Below are positions 51,889 to 58,661 of a stretch of 64,000 nucleotides of DNA, piece after piece (positions within the stretch are counted from its first letter, which is position 1; the number at the start of each line of letters is the position of its first letter). The DNA lies in NCBI RefSeq assembly GCF_003545715.1, contig NZ_QVNU01000002.1, forward strand, positions 186,001 to 250,000, given 5' to 3'. The notes beneath the pieces are model-generated. The model did no database searches, had not been told where the DNA came from, and saw only the letters and a list, made by a program, of their open reading frames with translations. This stretch comes from Taibaiella koreensis (GTDB taxonomy: Bacteria; Bacteroidota; Bacteroidia; Chitinophagales; Chitinophagaceae). Made by a program: the position numbers and the translations under genes.

Positions 51889-53295
51889 TTAGTAAGGTGT
51901 TTTCTCAGCATCCCAGGTAGTCCAACCTGCAGTCCAATCGTTGGAACCATCGAAGGCGCCGATATAGCTTGCGCTCTGGAAGAAGGAAGGCAGACCTGAA
52001 GTATTACCACCAGTGTTTGCAGGTGAAGAAGCAGTCAGGCGGAAGTCGGGGCGACCTACCTGAGCCGGTACTACCAGCGAAGCAGTGAACTTGAAAGGAT
52101 CAGCCAGGCCAACCTGTTGTGTGCTGTCCAGCAGCTGATTGTTCTGACCAGCTACCCAAGCACCGATGGCGGCATCATAAGGAGCAGTAGCTTTCAGCTT
52201 AACCGGGCAACCGGCCATAATGTTGTTGGCAAACTTCAGTGTACCGGCGATAGCGTTAGCAGAAGTCGGAACGCCTTTGGTATCGTCTATATACAAACCA
52301 GCCAGGGGATAACCCATGATGATGGAGTTCAGGATAGAGATAGAAGAGTTACGACGAATCTGAGCGCCATGCTGGAAGTTATTGTTGATGCCACTTGCAG
52401 ATTTACCCTGTATAGGTCCGATAACCGTCATGTTAGAGAAGATCGCTTTGGTCTGAGGTGTATTGGCAGAACCGTTGGCGTCGTTATCAGACTCGAAACC
52501 GTTGGAACCACTCTGATCGGCAACTGACTTTACACGCAGTGATACGCCGAACTGTACGTTACCGGAGAAACCGTTGTCGGTATCGAAGTCATCGTCCCAT
52601 GTGTAGGCGGCAACAAGGTGATCACAGTTTACAGTACCGCCAAACCATTCGTAAGCATCATCGCCGGAACGGTATACCTGTACATAGCTGATCTTGGTAC
52701 CGGCACCTACACCGCCCATGGTCAGACCATTGATCTCGTTGTCGGGAGAGTAAGCGATACCGGCAAACTCGATACGTACATATTTCAGGGTACCGGAGTT
52801 GTCATTAGCATCAGTACCACCAAACCAGATGTAATCTTTTTCTTTGTCAGTTTGCGTAGGTACCAGACCACCTTCGATCTTGGCTTCGCCACCGGTAGGA
52901 TTGATCGGTGCTTTACCCAGCAGGATCACACCACCCCAATCGCCTTCGCGACGGGCATCGGCTGCCTGGGCAGAAGTGAAGATGATAGGCTTGTCTACAG
53001 TACCTTCAGCGTTGATCTTACCGCCACGGCTTACGGTCAGCGTACCTTTGCTGGCTTTATCGCCCATGATGATGGTACCGGGCTCGATGGTCAGGGAAGC
53101 GCCATTGGTTACGTATACAAAACCCTTGAGCATATATTTTTTATCTGCAGTCCAGGTTTGGTTGCCTGTAATATCGCCTGTAATGGTCACGACATTTGAA
53201 GGATCGACAGGGTCCGGGGTGGGATCGTCTTTGCTGCTGCAGGAAGCAAAAAACAGCGCTGCTGCACTAAAACCAAGCAATACAAGCTTTTTCAT
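51889..53295 (-). CDS. Lipoprotein with right-handed beta-helix-like fold, probably phosphate regulated
   Basis: From the ATG at 53295 the product has 468 residues and a lipoprotein signal ending FFASC (C19) with SSKDDPTPDP after it. Repeats of short strands and asparagine/glycine turns (LKGFVYVTNGASLTIEPGTI, KGTLTVSRGGKINAEGTVDK, LKYVRIEFAGIAYSPDNEIN, TKISYVQVYRSGDDAYEWFG) indicate a beta-helix. It should sit on the outer membrane. Its promoter has the same 11-nt repeat array as the TonB receptor just upstream, so the two are likely co-regulated and may act together in capturing a phosphorus source. The codon use is regular, as in well-expressed genes. Confidence 0.8.
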   Translation of the reverse strand: MKKLVLLGFSAAALFFASCSSKDDPTPDPVDPSNVVTITGDITGNQTWTADKKYMLKGFVYVTNGASLTIEPGTIIMGDKASKGTLTVSRGGKINAEGTVDKPIIFTSAQAADARREGDWGGVILLGKAPINPTGGEAKIEGGLVPTQTDKEKDYIWFGGTDANDNSGTLKYVRIEFAGIAYSPDNEINGLTMGGVGAGTKISYVQVYRSGDDAYEWFGGTVNCDHLVAAYTWDDDFDTDNGFSGNVQFGVSLRVKSVADQSGSNGFESDNDANGSANTPQTKAIFSNMTVIGPIQGKSASGINNNFQHGAQIRRNSSISILNSIIMGYPLAGLYIDDTKGVPTSANAIAGTLKFANNIMAGCPVKLKATAPYDAAIGAWVAGQNNQLLDSTQQVGLADPFKFTASLVVPAQVGRPDFRLTASSPANTGGNTSGLPSFFQSASYIGAFDGSNDWTAGWTTWDAEKTPY

Positions 53296-53330
53296 AAATT
53301 TTGTTTTCGTTGTTGTTTTATTATTTGCCG

Positions 53331-53400
53331 CAAAAGTATCCGGACCATGTAACCGGAATGTTACGTCAAGATTATGCCTTTGTAAACTTTGGATACCTTT
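53331..53400 (-). promoter_or_regulatory. Promoter with 11-nt-periodic direct repeats before the lipoprotein gene
   Basis: TACTTTTG (minus strand, 53331-53338) is an exact -7 element. Seven bases upstream of it begins a series of 11-base units on the plus strand: ATGTAACCGGA, ATGTTACGTCA, AGATTATGCCT, TTGTAAACTTT, GGATACCTTTA (53346-53400). The shared core is (A/T)TGT(T/A)AC, strong in the first two and decaying after. The layout is that of PhoB-type direct-repeat boxes. Confidence 0.65.
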
Positions 53401-53421
53401 AACACAAAGCAAACAGAAAGA

Positions 53422-53439
53422 GCGGACCAAGTGGCCCGC
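53422..53439 (-). terminator. Terminator downstream of the TonB-dependent receptor
   Basis: GCGGACC-AAGT-GGCCCGC (one mismatch), with a T-rich minus-strand tail. Confidence 0.55.
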
Positions 53440-53461
53440 CCTTCGCGATATAATCTGTTGC

Positions 53462-56260
53462 TTAGAATTTATAGCTGTAGGTCAGCGTGAAGGTGCGTCC
53501 AGGCTTATATTGCTGCAATAACCAGTCCTGGTCGGGATCAATCTTGCCATCGGCAAAGCCAACCGTTCCAAATTTCTTATCGCTGTCCTGGTCAAAGTAG
53601 AAGCGCACAGGGTTGTTGATGATGTCTTTAATGTTAAGACGGAACTCGCTATGCTTGCTCACGGCATAGCTGGCCTGGAAATCAAGCAGGTTTCGTGGCG
53701 ACTCGTACACATTACCCACGCGACCGCCGCCCACCAGGTACAAGCGCTGTCCGATAAGATTGTACAGTACATTCAGGTTCAGCTTACCATTGGTGGAGGT
53801 ATACCCCAGGCTTGTATTGACCACATAAGGCGACTGACCACTCAAGGGGCGACTAGTTACCAGCTTGTCTCTTACGTAATAGGGATCGGTGTTTACCTTT
53901 GAGTTAATATAAGCCAGGTTCATATAGAAGCTCAGGTTCTTCACGAAAGAATTTTCGGAGATGAAATCGAGCTTTTTGCGCAACTCCAGCTCAGCGCCGA
54001 TGTTCTGGGCCGACTTGTAGTTTTTGGTGGTAATGTCGTAAGCGCTACCGTCGCCGTATACAAAGTTCTCAAGGGTATTGTTGAAGTGCTTGTAGAATAC
54101 CGATACAGAGACGATCTCACCTGCCCTTGGATACCATTCGTAACGCAGGTCGGCATTGTCGATCTGGCTGCGTGTCAGGCTGGAATTACCGGTGATCTGT
54201 GCAGAGAGCTCATAATCGTAATAGCCGAGGTTGGCCATTTCACGCAGTTCGGGACGGGCTACGCTCCTGAAGTAGGAGGCCCTGAGGTTGGTCTTGGGGC
54301 TGAGCGAATAGGTAAGGTTGGCAGAAGGTAAGATGTCGTTCCAGGTCTGATCCACTTCTTTTTTCAATGGTGTATTCAGATCAATGTGATAAGATTCCAT
54401 ACGGGCGCCCCATACAATGCGGAAGTTTTCTGTGATCTTATTATCCAGCATCAGGTAACCACCGGTGGTCATGGCCTTGGCCTTGTACTCATCCGCATCA
54501 CCGGTAAGATCGGCCAGGGAATAGTAGTTCTGAGAGATCACATCGCTCGCAAACAACGTAGACAGGGGCCGCTGCAGCACATCCAGGTAGTTGGGCTGTT
54601 GGGTATTGATCACAGCACCGATATAACGGTTGGCAAAATCGCGATGGCGATAAGTAGCGAACGCACCTACTTTCAGGCTGCTTTTATTCAGGAACTTGAA
54701 GGGCATGGAATAGTTTACGCCACCATTCAGCACGGTCTCATTCAGGTCGCCAAAAAGACGGTTATTCGCTTTACCCAATGAATATAGCTGGGCCAGGAAG
54801 GGTTCTGTAGTGCCTTCAGACTGCGTATAGGCTACCTTGCGTTGATCGGGTTGATTGTTGGTAATATAGTTGTAAGATACCAGCCAGTTCAGTTTGCCCT
54901 GCTTACCACCAATCTGGTGATCACCGCTCAGTGTGGTTTTAAACAGCGACTTTTGGATCAGGTCATAGGCGTAGTACTTCACATTCTGTGAAGAACCAGC
55001 ATTTACACCTTCACGCTCCAGGTAGTTATCGTCGAAAATACGGTTGTAGAAAGTCTTAAGGTTGATCTTGCTCTTACCGGTATAGTAACCCAGGTTCAAC
55101 AGGGCGCCCAGGTTGGTAGAATAGTTGTAGATATTATCCTTATAGTCGTAGTTGTCGTATTGACGGAGCAGCTCAGGCTTTATGTTCTCGCTGTGGTTGT
55201 AAGTAACGGCAGCAGTAACACCGAAACGGGAGTTGCCTTTCAGGTTGTATACGCGTCCCAGAGAAGCCTGCAGGGCCATAGAGGGCAAGGCCGTATGCTC
55301 TTTGGTGCTAAAATCATTGTTGAGCAATTTCAGGTAAGGCACCGACTGTTCCGGCGTCAGATTTTTACCGGCTATCGCTTTCTGTGTGGGGAAGCTTTTG
55401 GGCAGCTGACGATCACCATTATCAAATCCCAGGAAATCGGTAGAAGTACGGTATCCTGATTTGAATGTCTTAAATGTGGAAGCAGTATTGACGCCGGTAC
55501 CGATGGAGATGTTGGCAAAGTTATCATCGGGAACTTCCTTGGTCAGGATGTTGATCACACCACCGGCAAAGTCGCCCGGCAGATCGGGGGTACCTGCTTT
55601 GGTGATAATGATGTTGTCGATCATGCTGGAAGGAATGATATCGAAAGAGAATGCCTTCCGGTTGGGCTCGGTACTGGGCAGTACGGCATCATCCACCAGG
55701 GCGGTATTGTAACGGTCGCTGAGGCCACGCACGATCACGAACTTATTGTCCTGGATCGTGGTGCCGCTCACCCTTTTCAGCGCTTCACCGGTGCTTCTGT
55801 CCGGTGAACGACGGATGGCTTCGGCAGAGATACCATCCGATACGGCCACGGCGTTTTTCTGCATGGTGTACAGCGCATTTACGGTTTCTTTCTTCACGGT
55901 ACCCTGGATCACCACTTCGTCCAGCTGTGTATTTTTAGGCTCGCTCATCGCTACGGAAGCCTTTGTAACGTTTCCTTCAGTAACACTAATATCTGTTATT
56001 CTCTTGGTTTGATAACCTACATATTGTACTTCAATTTCATAGTCGCCGGGAGCTACCTCAAAGACATAGTTACCGTCGATATCGGTTATGGTTCCGGACA
56101 TAGGAGTAGGAGATTCTCCTCCTTTCTGGAATAAGGATACGGATACACCGATCAGGGTTTCGGATGAACCGCCGTCGGTTATGGTCCCGACAATCTTTCC
56201 GCCCGCAAATACCTGACCTGCAATCAATAAGGTGAGGATTAGTGTAAATAAATTACGCAT
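53462..56260 (-). CDS. TonB-dependent receptor with carboxypeptidase-like domain, probable phosphate-regulon member
   Basis: The 932-residue receptor has a signal peptide (MRNLFTLILTLLIAGQVFAG), a carboxypeptidase-regulatory-like domain (IVGTITDGGSSETLIGVSVSL to VQYVGYQTKRI), a plug (TQLDEVVIQGTVKKE, IIPSSMIDNIIITKAGTPDLPGDFAGG) and a large barrel ending YKPGRTFTLTYSYKF. It has no SusD-type partner. The lipoprotein gene next door, the PhoU-like/PiT pair on the other side and the shared 11-nt operator suggest uptake of a phosphorus compound. The ligand itself cannot be read. Confidence 0.88.
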   Translation of the reverse strand: MRNLFTLILTLLIAGQVFAGGKIVGTITDGGSSETLIGVSVSLFQKGGESPTPMSGTITDIDGNYVFEVAPGDYEIEVQYVGYQTKRITDISVTEGNVTKASVAMSEPKNTQLDEVVIQGTVKKETVNALYTMQKNAVAVSDGISAEAIRRSPDRSTGEALKRVSGTTIQDNKFVIVRGLSDRYNTALVDDAVLPSTEPNRKAFSFDIIPSSMIDNIIITKAGTPDLPGDFAGGVINILTKEVPDDNFANISIGTGVNTASTFKTFKSGYRTSTDFLGFDNGDRQLPKSFPTQKAIAGKNLTPEQSVPYLKLLNNDFSTKEHTALPSMALQASLGRVYNLKGNSRFGVTAAVTYNHSENIKPELLRQYDNYDYKDNIYNYSTNLGALLNLGYYTGKSKINLKTFYNRIFDDNYLEREGVNAGSSQNVKYYAYDLIQKSLFKTTLSGDHQIGGKQGKLNWLVSYNYITNNQPDQRKVAYTQSEGTTEPFLAQLYSLGKANNRLFGDLNETVLNGGVNYSMPFKFLNKSSLKVGAFATYRHRDFANRYIGAVINTQQPNYLDVLQRPLSTLFASDVISQNYYSLADLTGDADEYKAKAMTTGGYLMLDNKITENFRIVWGARMESYHIDLNTPLKKEVDQTWNDILPSANLTYSLSPKTNLRASYFRSVARPELREMANLGYYDYELSAQITGNSSLTRSQIDNADLRYEWYPRAGEIVSVSVFYKHFNNTLENFVYGDGSAYDITTKNYKSAQNIGAELELRKKLDFISENSFVKNLSFYMNLAYINSKVNTDPYYVRDKLVTSRPLSGQSPYVVNTSLGYTSTNGKLNLNVLYNLIGQRLYLVGGGRVGNVYESPRNLLDFQASYAVSKHSEFRLNIKDIINNPVRFYFDQDSDKKFGTVGFADGKIDPDQDWLLQQYKPGRTFTLTYSYKF

Positions 56261-56285
56261 AACTATAAAGTATATAATTTGAGCG

Positions 56286-56378
56286 CAAAATTGAAATCCT
56301 AATGTTACCCTTGGATTACGGTAATGTTACCGATGGGTAAACTTAATGTTACCACAACATTACCAATTGCTTAGGATC
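56286..56378. promoter_or_regulatory. Operator of 11-nt-periodic direct repeats between TonB receptor and PiT operon
   Basis: TAATGTTACC recurs at 56300, 56322 and 56344, exactly 22 apart. The in-between registers (GGATTACGG, GGGTAAACT, ACATTACCA) keep a weaker TTAC core, giving an 11-base period over about 70 bases. A minus-strand CAATTTTG (56286-56293) is the receptor's -7 element, 8 bases from the array, matching the 7-base spacing at the lipoprotein promoter. Confidence 0.75.
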
Positions 56379-56477: not shown

Positions 56478-57125
56478 ATGGGTCTTAATTCCTTCATTAA
56501 ATTGTTCCTTCCCAAGGATAAAGTCTTCTACAGCATTTTCGAACAGGTAGGCGCCAACCTGAAAGAAATGGGCGCTTCCTTCCGTGCTGCGATCGAACAA
56601 ACCGATGTAACCAAAAGGACCCAGATGCTAAGGGCGCTGGAAGACGCTGAACATAAGAACGACGAACTGACCCATAAAATATTTGTCGAGCTAGGTCAAA
56701 ACTTCATTACGCCATTTGACCGCGAAGATATTCACTACCTGGCTACCTCTCTCGACGACGTTGCCGACTTCATCTATGCCTCATCCAAAAAGATGGTGAA
56801 CTACCAGGTGAGGGAGATCGACAGTTTCATGAAAGAAATGGTAGTGGTGATCGAAAACGCCATCGTGGCGCTCGACAAGGCCCTGCATGAGCTGCGTAAC
56901 ATGAAGAACCTTCGCGCGATCACCGAGGCCTGCGTGCAGATCAACAGTCTTGAAAACCAGGCCGACGACCTGTTGGACAACGCCATTATCAAGATGTTTG
57001 CCTCCAGCACCGATCCTATTGAGCTGGTAAAGCTTAAAGACATTTACCAGGATATGGAGATCATCACCGACAAGTGCGAGGATGCAGCCAACGTGATCGA
57101 ATCCATCATTATCAAATACGCTTAA
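56478..57125 (+). CDS. DUF47 family PhoU-like protein
   Basis: The 215-residue helical protein belongs to the PhoU-like DUF47 family that accompanies PiT transporters. Visible family segments are FFPK-like LFLPKDKVFYSIFEQVGANL, EDAEHKNDELTHKIFVELGQNFITPFDREDIHYLATSLDDVADFIYA and DIYQDMEIITDKCEDAANVIESIIIKYA. Acidic residues in these runs bind metal clusters in PhoU relatives. It likely gates or senses transport. The PiT gene follows after 87 bases. Confidence 0.93.
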   Translation: MGLNSFIKLFLPKDKVFYSIFEQVGANLKEMGASFRAAIEQTDVTKRTQMLRALEDAEHKNDELTHKIFVELGQNFITPFDREDIHYLATSLDDVADFIYASSKKMVNYQVREIDSFMKEMVVVIENAIVALDKALHELRNMKNLRAITEACVQINSLENQADDLLDNAIIKMFASSTDPIELVKLKDIYQDMEIITDKCEDAANVIESIIIKYA

Positions 57126-57212: not shown

Positions 57213-58661
57213 ATGACTTTATTAATCATTATTATCATACTGGCGCTTGTATTTGATTACATCAATGGCTTCCACGATGCCGCTAATGCAATCGCCACCG
57301 TTGTATCGACCAAGGTGCTCACGCCTTTCCAGGCCGTACTCTGGGCTGCCCTGTTCAACTTCGTCGCCTATTTTATCTTTACCGATCACGGCGTAGCCAA
57401 TACCATCGCAAAGACGGTACATTCGGAGTTCATTACCCTGCCGGTGATCCTTGCCGGGCTGGTAGCGGCCATTACCTGGAACCTTATCACCTGGTGGTTC
57501 GGTATCCCTTCCAGCTCATCGCATACGCTTATCGGCGGCTTTGCCGGAGCAGCCATAGCCCACGCAGGTTTTAATTCTATCGATACGCCCACTATCCTTA
57601 CTATTGTTTGCTTTATTTTCCTGGCGCCCATCATTGGTATGCTGGTCGCCTTTATCATTTCGATATGGTTCCTTAACTCATTCCGGAAAAGCTTTGGCCC
57701 CAAGATCATTTCCTTCCTGGTAATATTGGGTGTAGTGGTATTCCTGTCGAATATGATCGAGACCAGCCCTACCAAGCTGGCCGGCATCAAGGGTTTTGAC
57801 AAAACGGAACAAGGCGCCCCCGCCATCAAAGGCATATCGGGAAGCAATACCAATGCGTATAAAATGGGGCTTCGCGACAAGGATGTGATCCTTAAGATCA
57901 ACCAGCAGCCCGTGAGCGATAAAGAAGCGATAAGCAAGGCATTTGACGGGTTCCGGAACGATGAGCCCGTAACCCTCGAGGTACTGCGCAAAGATGAGAT
58001 CAAAACACTTAACGGTTTTAACCACCCCCGTTTTGATTCCGGGTTCCTGAATGTCATTTTCTACGGTGAAAACTTCAAGTGGGTGTTGATGTGCTTTATC
58101 CTCACCGTGATGAGCCTGTTCACACTCTTCCTCAGCAACCTTAACTATGCACAGTCAGAACGCTGGTTCAAGCGGATGCAGCTGGTTTCCTCAGCGGCCT
58201 TCAGCATCGGTCACGGTGGCAACGATTCCCAAAAGGTAATGGGTATCATTATGGCCGCCCTCATCTCGTTCGATCCCGGCAGATACCACCTGGACCATAT
58301 GGAATGGTGGGTACCGCTGGCTTGCTATACCGTAATCGCCCTGGGTACTATGAGCGGTGGCTGGAAGATCATCAAGACCATGGGCACCCGTATTACCAAG
58401 GTAACGCCGTTTGAAGGCGTGGCGGCCGAAACCGCGGGAGCGCTTACCTTGTTCATTACCGAAATGCTGAAAATACCGGTAAGTACCACACATACCATTA
58501 CAGGTTCCATTATTGGGGTCGGCGCCACCAAACGACTTTCCGCCGTGCGCTGGGGTGTGACCATCAACCTGCTCTGGGCCTGGATCATCACCATCCCGAT
58601 TAGCGGTCTTATGGCGGCAATCGTCTATTTTGTATTCAAGCTTACCGGGCTGGGCAACTAG
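57213..58661 (+). CDS. PiT-family inorganic phosphate transporter with PDZ-like insert
   Basis: The 482-residue transporter has both PiT repeats: GFHDAANAIATVVSTK (19-34) with GIPSSSSHTLIGG (97-109), and IGHGGNDSQKVMGI with PVSTTHTITGSIIGVG in the second half. Between the halves, residues about 197-270 are not membrane but match a PDZ fold: AIKGISGSNTNAYKMGLRDKDVILKINQQPVSDKEAI to PVTLEVLRKDE. Most PiT proteins have an unstructured or short loop here. The insert could bind a C-terminal peptide of a regulator or partner. The DUF47 gene upstream is the normal companion. Confidence 0.92.
   Translation: MTLLIIIIILALVFDYINGFHDAANAIATVVSTKVLTPFQAVLWAALFNFVAYFIFTDHGVANTIAKTVHSEFITLPVILAGLVAAITWNLITWWFGIPSSSSHTLIGGFAGAAIAHAGFNSIDTPTILTIVCFIFLAPIIGMLVAFIISIWFLNSFRKSFGPKIISFLVILGVVVFLSNMIETSPTKLAGIKGFDKTEQGAPAIKGISGSNTNAYKMGLRDKDVILKINQQPVSDKEAISKAFDGFRNDEPVTLEVLRKDEIKTLNGFNHPRFDSGFLNVIFYGENFKWVLMCFILTVMSLFTLFLSNLNYAQSERWFKRMQLVSSAAFSIGHGGNDSQKVMGIIMAALISFDPGRYHLDHMEWWVPLACYTVIALGTMSGGWKIIKTMGTRITKVTPFEGVAAETAGALTLFITEMLKIPVSTTHTITGSIIGVGATKRLSAVRWGVTINLLWAWIITIPISGLMAAIVYFVFKLTGLGN

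Follow-up and report, generated by a model that had tools for sequence, protein, structure and literature searches.

The question raised by this locus is whether the regularly spaced direct repeats in front of a TonB-dependent receptor gene and of the adjoining lipoprotein gene are operators of a phosphate regulon. PhoB is known in Bacteroidota, and TonB receptors of the low-phosphate response have been found there by omics approaches; a published operator of the present form tying the two together was not found in the literature searched. Analysis of the window (the whole stretch of DNA studied, 64 kb, C16:186001-250000 of a 5.94-Mb genome that is 99.65% complete), together with related genomes, indicates with high probability that the two arrays are Pho boxes, i.e., predicted PhoB operators that would turn on the receptor and the lipoprotein under phosphate starvation. 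The closest named relative found was Taibaiella helva, whose receptor is 94% identical. The coordinates of all features are collected in Table 1.

Both arrays consist of 11-nt units arranged head to tail in the minus-strand promoters, with the unit consensus GTAAYATTNNG. Read on the minus strand, the receptor array displays the cores GTAAT, GTAAC, TTTAC, GTAAC, GTAAT and GTAAC, followed by 14 nt and then TTTG; on the plus strand, it divides into the six 11-mers TAATGTTACCC, TTGGATTACGG, TAATGTTACCG, ATGGGTAAACT, TAATGTTACCA and CAACATTACCA. The sequence TAATGTTACC is found exactly at 56300, 56322 and 56344 (plus strand), with weaker units lying between the copies at 56311, 56333 and 56355 (the second, fourth and sixth 11-mers). 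Thus, the 22-nt spacing with weaker copies at 11 nt described in the original prediction was confirmed before the receptor. No further exact copy of TAATGTTACC was found in the window, where eight places match it with at most one mismatch, compared with 3.0 (maximum 7) in 100 dinucleotide shuffles, and the receptor array is the sole occurrence of the 22-nt pair TAATGTTACC-N12-TAATGTTACC in the whole genome. In four members of the genus, the cores of this array are kept and the spacers are altered.

The lipoprotein array is weaker and comprises a weak GTATC followed by GTTTAC, ATAAT, GTAAC and GTTAC. It had been thought to carry the same core as the receptor array, which holds for the GTAAC/GTTAC part and fails for the remainder, as two positions distinguish its best unit, AATGTTACG, from TAATGTTACC. 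The closeness of both arrays to a -7 element proved to be strict, since exactly 14 nt separate the last GTAAC or GTTAC from TTTG in each of the two promoters. The repeats had also been assigned to the PiT gene on the other side of the intergenic region; the array is oriented toward the receptor only, and PiT was therefore ruled out as its target. No box directed at the PhoU_div or PiT genes was found.

Table 1. Positions of the features described in the text; plain numbers are window positions, and operator and promoter assignments are predictions.
Feature	Position	Strand	Remarks
Secreted lipoprotein	51889..53295	-	Signal-peptide Cys 19 invariant; conserved receptor partner; own box
Lipoprotein -7 element TACTTTTG	53331..53338	-	Perfect; TTTG 14 nt past last core
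Lipoprotein Pho-box array (predicted)	53346..53400	-	Four to five 11-nt units; best genome profile match
TonB-dependent receptor	53462..56260	-	Pfam CarboxypepD_reg, Plug and barrel; no SusD partner
Receptor -7 element CAATTTTG	56286..56293	-	TTTG at 56286-56289, exactly 14 nt past last GTAAC
Receptor Pho-box array (predicted)	56300..56365	-	Six 11-nt units; second-best genome profile match
PhoU_div/DUF47 protein	56478..57125	+	Divergent neighbour of receptor; no box directed at gene
PiT-type phosphate permease (PHO4)	57213..58661	+	From Pfam; kept as neighbour in several relatives
Purple acid phosphatase with T9SS tail	C21:222758		Next profile match after the two window sites
TonB receptor	C10:137190		Profile match
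PhoA	C19:268100		Profile match
DUF5690 MFS protein	C20:13420		Profile match
TonB receptor	C2:18202		Profile match
Two T9SS-secreted proteins	C20:37295, C19:165073		Profile matches, weak
TonB receptor	C19:184385		Profile match, weak
PafA-like phosphodiesterase	C17:128464		Profile match, weak
Purple acid phosphatase, second	C20:196633		Profile match, weak
T9SS-tailed proteins with predicted box	L056:6843-10070, L060:7923-9992, L071:7371-11216, L072:5932-7053
Small-RNA candidates	L182, L183, L184		About 100 nt past box; 3' of phoR
Small-RNA candidates	L087, L139, L154, L167, L283, L291
Small-RNA candidate	L242, about 5.5 kb	-
Small-RNA candidate	L247, about 13.69 kb

Concerning the gene products, the receptor is TIGR01782-like with a score below the cut-off. 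The lipoprotein has counterparts of 41-75% identity adjoining the receptor in relatives; the Pfam search matched it to no family, no PDB homologue was found, and for its proposed beta-helix fold, the single-sequence AlphaFold model (pLDDT 30) was too poor for use. In the PiT permease, an inserted PDZ domain (residues 212-267) separates the two PHO4 halves, and the PiT frames of relatives such as L237 and L242 are far shorter (334-337 aa).

A pattern of three units, N14 and TTTG, allowing at most one mismatch, was then sought in 197 Chitinophagaceae genomes. It was found at 112 places in 90 of these genomes versus 19 for the reversed pattern, with the reservation that the genomes are related and the site counts are thus non-independent events. 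The genes downstream of the 110 oriented sites outside the source genome were classified by BLAST, which assigned 89 of them: 56 TonB receptors, 13 members of one porin family, six homologues of the window lipoprotein, five PlcP-like metallophosphoesterases, two Porin_O_P proteins, one PhoA and six of three other kinds, leaving 21 unassigned (the labels 'porin' and 'PlcP-like' were read from the sequences). Pfam agreed with this classification (PhoX 3, Metallophos 5, Alk_phosphatase 1, Porin_O_P 2). Within the stretches examined, PstS directly follows the porin in 10 of the 13 porin loci, mostly together with PstC; in the cluster used as the reference for these assignments (G073), the receptor and lipoprotein genes are followed by porin, pstS, pstC, pstA, pstB and phoU (pst and phoU having been named from their sequences). 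The boxes anticipated before pst, phoX and phoA were therefore present in relatives, at porin-pstSCA operons, PhoX, PhoA and PlcP-like genes. The element thus precedes known phosphate genes, at unchanged spacing, in dozens of genomes from relatives, and it is therefore very probably the phosphate-scavenging switch site of Chitinophagaceae.

The promoter geometry of these sites favours one fixed distance. In a free-gap search over 4-34 nt (31 possible values), a gap of 14 was observed in 28 of 46 distinct matches (p about 3e-30), and the start codon lies at a median of 21 nt past TTTG. The logo of 83 aligned sites revealed a conserved fourth upstream unit, KTWAYATT, that had not been part of the search (its two key positions are T in 97% and A in 97% of the sites), and the leading TA of TAnnTTTG likewise exceeded background; no TTTG appeared at the expected -33 place, which is covered by the array. 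Conservation was also evident when receptor orthologues (n = 30) were picked by protein similarity alone and scored with a matrix trained on 25 non-receptor sites: a box was present upstream of all 30, every one scoring above the best of 600 dinucleotide shuffles. In eight of the 30, a second box lies within the first 360 nt past the receptor gene, as in the window. In G108, a 127-aa protein (L140:770-1150) follows a box situated 553 nt ahead of the receptor box, and a similar protein (L237:11490-11945) lies between a PlcP-like gene and the receptor in G007.

In a sample of the phylum, the exact pattern was found in 19 of 296 genomes, some of these belonging to the family. Most matches outside the family are again located in front of receptors, porins, pstS, a lipoprotein homologue and a metallophosphoesterase, and a diverged version of the same kind of box is therefore probably present beyond the family. 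Thus, the designation 'the Bacteroidota Pho box' is borne out insofar as matching arrays precede phosphate genes, but it is too broad for the exact consensus, which is mainly that of Chitinophagaceae and is rare elsewhere in the phylum.

For the source genome itself, a profile of 70 positions, sequence-only and built from 73 sites of other genera, was run on the entire 5.94 Mb. The lipoprotein site (53329-53393, E 6.8e-8) ranked first and the receptor site (E 3.3e-6) second, and the upstream part of the receptor array gave an additional separate match. The remaining matches are listed in Table 1; those from C20:37295 down are weak (E 0.01-1), and further weak ones lack such a gene. The genome scan proposed earlier for other phosphate genes was thereby answered positively, with arrays of equal spacing before phoA, purple acid phosphatases and the PafA-like phosphodiesterase. 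Likewise, the pattern of three units, N14 and TTTG with at most two mismatches occurs at four places in the genome, before the receptor, PhoA, the lipoprotein and a purple-acid-phosphatase-type protein; only this threshold separates signal from noise, since three mismatches gave 14 matches in all versus 11 in controls. A three-unit TTACC pattern lacking the -7 element was discarded, as it yielded many chance matches (33 versus 13 in controls).

PstC was not found on any contig of the source genome, which gave a weak permease match only, and a missing high-affinity Pst transporter has likewise been reported for plant-associated Bacteroidetes (PMC8115612). This genome thus seems to be devoid of high-affinity Pst and presumably depends on PiT behind the TonB receptors. 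The DUF5690 MFS-type transporter (L262:1563-2885, equal to C20:13420) has a Pho box in front in this genome, and L282 and L284 show a box-like promoter before an apparently similar DUF5690 transporter adjoining the lipoprotein gene; it is a candidate phosphate-ester transporter. T9SS sorting tails were observed on a purple acid phosphatase, PhoA, a choice-of-anchor I protein and a small secreted protein among the predicted targets, and much of the predicted phosphate response would therefore leave the cell via type IX secretion.

The best match of the source genome to the PhoB model is the regulator at C21:181019-181705. Its top NCBIfam families, NF053854 and TIGR02154, are both PhoB models, with scores below the cut-off (213 bits for PhoB versus a cut-off of 296), and the PhoR orthologue, the kinase at C22:38.5k, falls below the NCBI curated cut-off as well. 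Orthologues of the regulator in three relatives (G116, G067 and G108; 58-71% identity) have a kinase gene directly downstream, and these regulator-kinase pairs lie no more than a few kb from box-associated receptor, lipoprotein and PiT genes. The kinase of the G116 and G108 pairs is orthologous to that at C22:38.5k (56-60% identity). Synteny in the relatives thus marks the regulator and the kinase of the source genome as clear orthologues of this pair, and no other regulator of that genome scores higher against the PhoB model; in the source genome, the phoB and phoR orthologues are non-adjacent, and no box was seen before its phoB. In G204, a box is followed by pstS-pstC-pstA-pstB-phoU, a PhoB-type regulator and a further gene reading as its kinase, and in G476 (L231), the phoB orthologue adjoins the box-bearing receptor.

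From these arrangements and from what is established for the PhoB family, we infer PhoB binding, activation, induction by low phosphate and the substrate of the receptor as follows. Each 11-nt unit, about one helical turn, would be bound by the effector domain of one PhoB molecule, and several PhoB dimers would therefore follow one another in the same orientation along a single DNA face. The array would occupy the place of the -33 element and stop at a fixed distance of 14 nt from TTTG in the -7 element of Bacteroidota; PhoB would thus sit beside RNA polymerase and might recruit it, as E. coli PhoB does at boxes overlapping -35 (PMC4415409, PMC3348028). Under phosphate starvation, the TonB receptor and the lipoprotein would be switched on along with secreted phosphatases; the first two would collect phosphorus at the outer membrane, the inner-membrane step being performed by PiT.

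The main competitor of this model is that another regulator of the OmpR/PhoB family owns the array and governs general outer-membrane nutrient uptake, of which the phosphate genes would be only a part. About a dozen OmpR-type regulators of the source genome match the full length of the PhoB model, direct repeats of 11 nt characterize that family as a whole, and TonB receptors make up half of the matches. However, the classified targets other than receptors are almost all phosphate genes (pst operons, PhoX, PhoA, phosphatases and phosphate-selective porins), and the regulator located beside the clusters is the best scorer against PhoB models; we thus consider a different owner unlikely. It is less likely still that the arrays act chiefly as repressor or silencing sites. 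Such sites would be expected to cover the promoter beside the -7 element, as the arrays do, but the constant 14-nt distance to TTTG and the missing -33 TTTG point to activation, and low phosphate induces rather than represses relatives of these gene types (PMC8115612). As the motif is short and a few single matches occur elsewhere in the window, a chance or local low-complexity origin of the repeats might also be considered; it is refuted by the genome-wide E-values of a model built from outside sites, by the excess over controls in the family scan and by the box at every receptor orthologue. PhoB therefore remains the favoured regulator of the two arrays.

The unassigned sites of the family scan harbor a second class of possible targets. 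Seven of the 21 are devoid of a reading frame and are followed by about 64-124 nt ending in a hairpin and a T-run, and the predicted transcripts share TTTCTCATG, usually TTTTCTCATGC. With further loci, there are 11 small-RNA candidates in about eight genera, several of which have phoR, a glycosyltransferase or the lipoprotein gene as a neighbour; three genomes of a single genus share a nearly identical stretch of about 100 nt with differing flanks. A dedicated pattern search returned 31 matches, and because many of these look like antisense gene starts, only terminator-bearing ones were counted. No curated Rfam family matched these loci, the Rfam matches obtained being plant or animal RNA models below the gathering score and dismissed as chance; RNAalifold gave no consensus structure for the 11 candidates, and none was seen in the source genome. 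On balance, we lean slightly toward the view that short, terminator-ended small RNAs with a conserved, mostly unpaired TTTCTCATG just before the terminator form a further family driven by the Chitinophagaceae Pho box. If so, Bacteroidota would possess a small RNA of the phosphate-starvation response, which may pair with the start regions (AUGAGAAA) of target mRNAs.

Compared with known systems, the gene content of the locus recalls Flavobacterium johnsoniae, in which the genes responding most strongly to low phosphate include TonB receptors and polygalacturonase-like lipoproteins, and one receptor-lipoprotein cluster sits beside phoBR (PMC8115612). The phosphate utilisation loci of that species, with lipoproteins of the FI, FII and FIII types, combine a TonB receptor with a lipoprotein, as does the pair in the window, and no operator is described for them in the main text of that report (PMC8115612). 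In gene layout, the window receptor and lipoprotein resemble the FI/FII type. Unlike PusCD (SusCD type), the partner lipoprotein here has no SusD domain according to Pfam, and the pair was therefore not classed as PusCD.

With regard to regulators of the phylum, the phosphate-responsive PhoP of Riemerella anatipestifer yielded a DAP-seq motif with the core TTTAACA from 583 peaks (PMC9603813), which is near the unit KTWAYATT; that regulator is of the PhoP/PhoB type. However, in the available part of that report, the motif is a single one compared with ArcA, with neither a phased array nor a fixed promoter distance, and is not linked to pst or phosphatase genes (PMC9603813). PhoB of Bacteroides fragilis, from another branch of the phylum, was shown to bind the pstC promoter, with no box sequence defined in the part of the source available (PMC3547664).

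The closest counterpart in form is the E. coli Pho box, in which PhoB occupies head-to-tail 11-nt units over the distal promoter element of pst- and phoA-type genes (PMC4415409, PMC3348028). Two or more such units (CTGTCAT repeats in E. coli) and the same gene types are common to both; in contrast, the core here is GTAAC/TTAAC instead of TGTCA, there are three to six units, and the array is fixed to the Bacteroidota -7 element TAnnTTTG. The predicted operator is thus of a known kind, and its defined form, fitted to the Bacteroidota promoter, is well supported by the genome comparisons. With the box and its fixed distance to the promoter defined, phosphate regulons would be readable straight from Chitinophagaceae genomes, and receptors, lipoproteins, secreted phosphatases and the DUF5690 transporter would be assigned to the scavenging of phosphorus; the box would also illustrate the fitting of an activator array to the unusual -7/-33 promoter of Bacteroidota.
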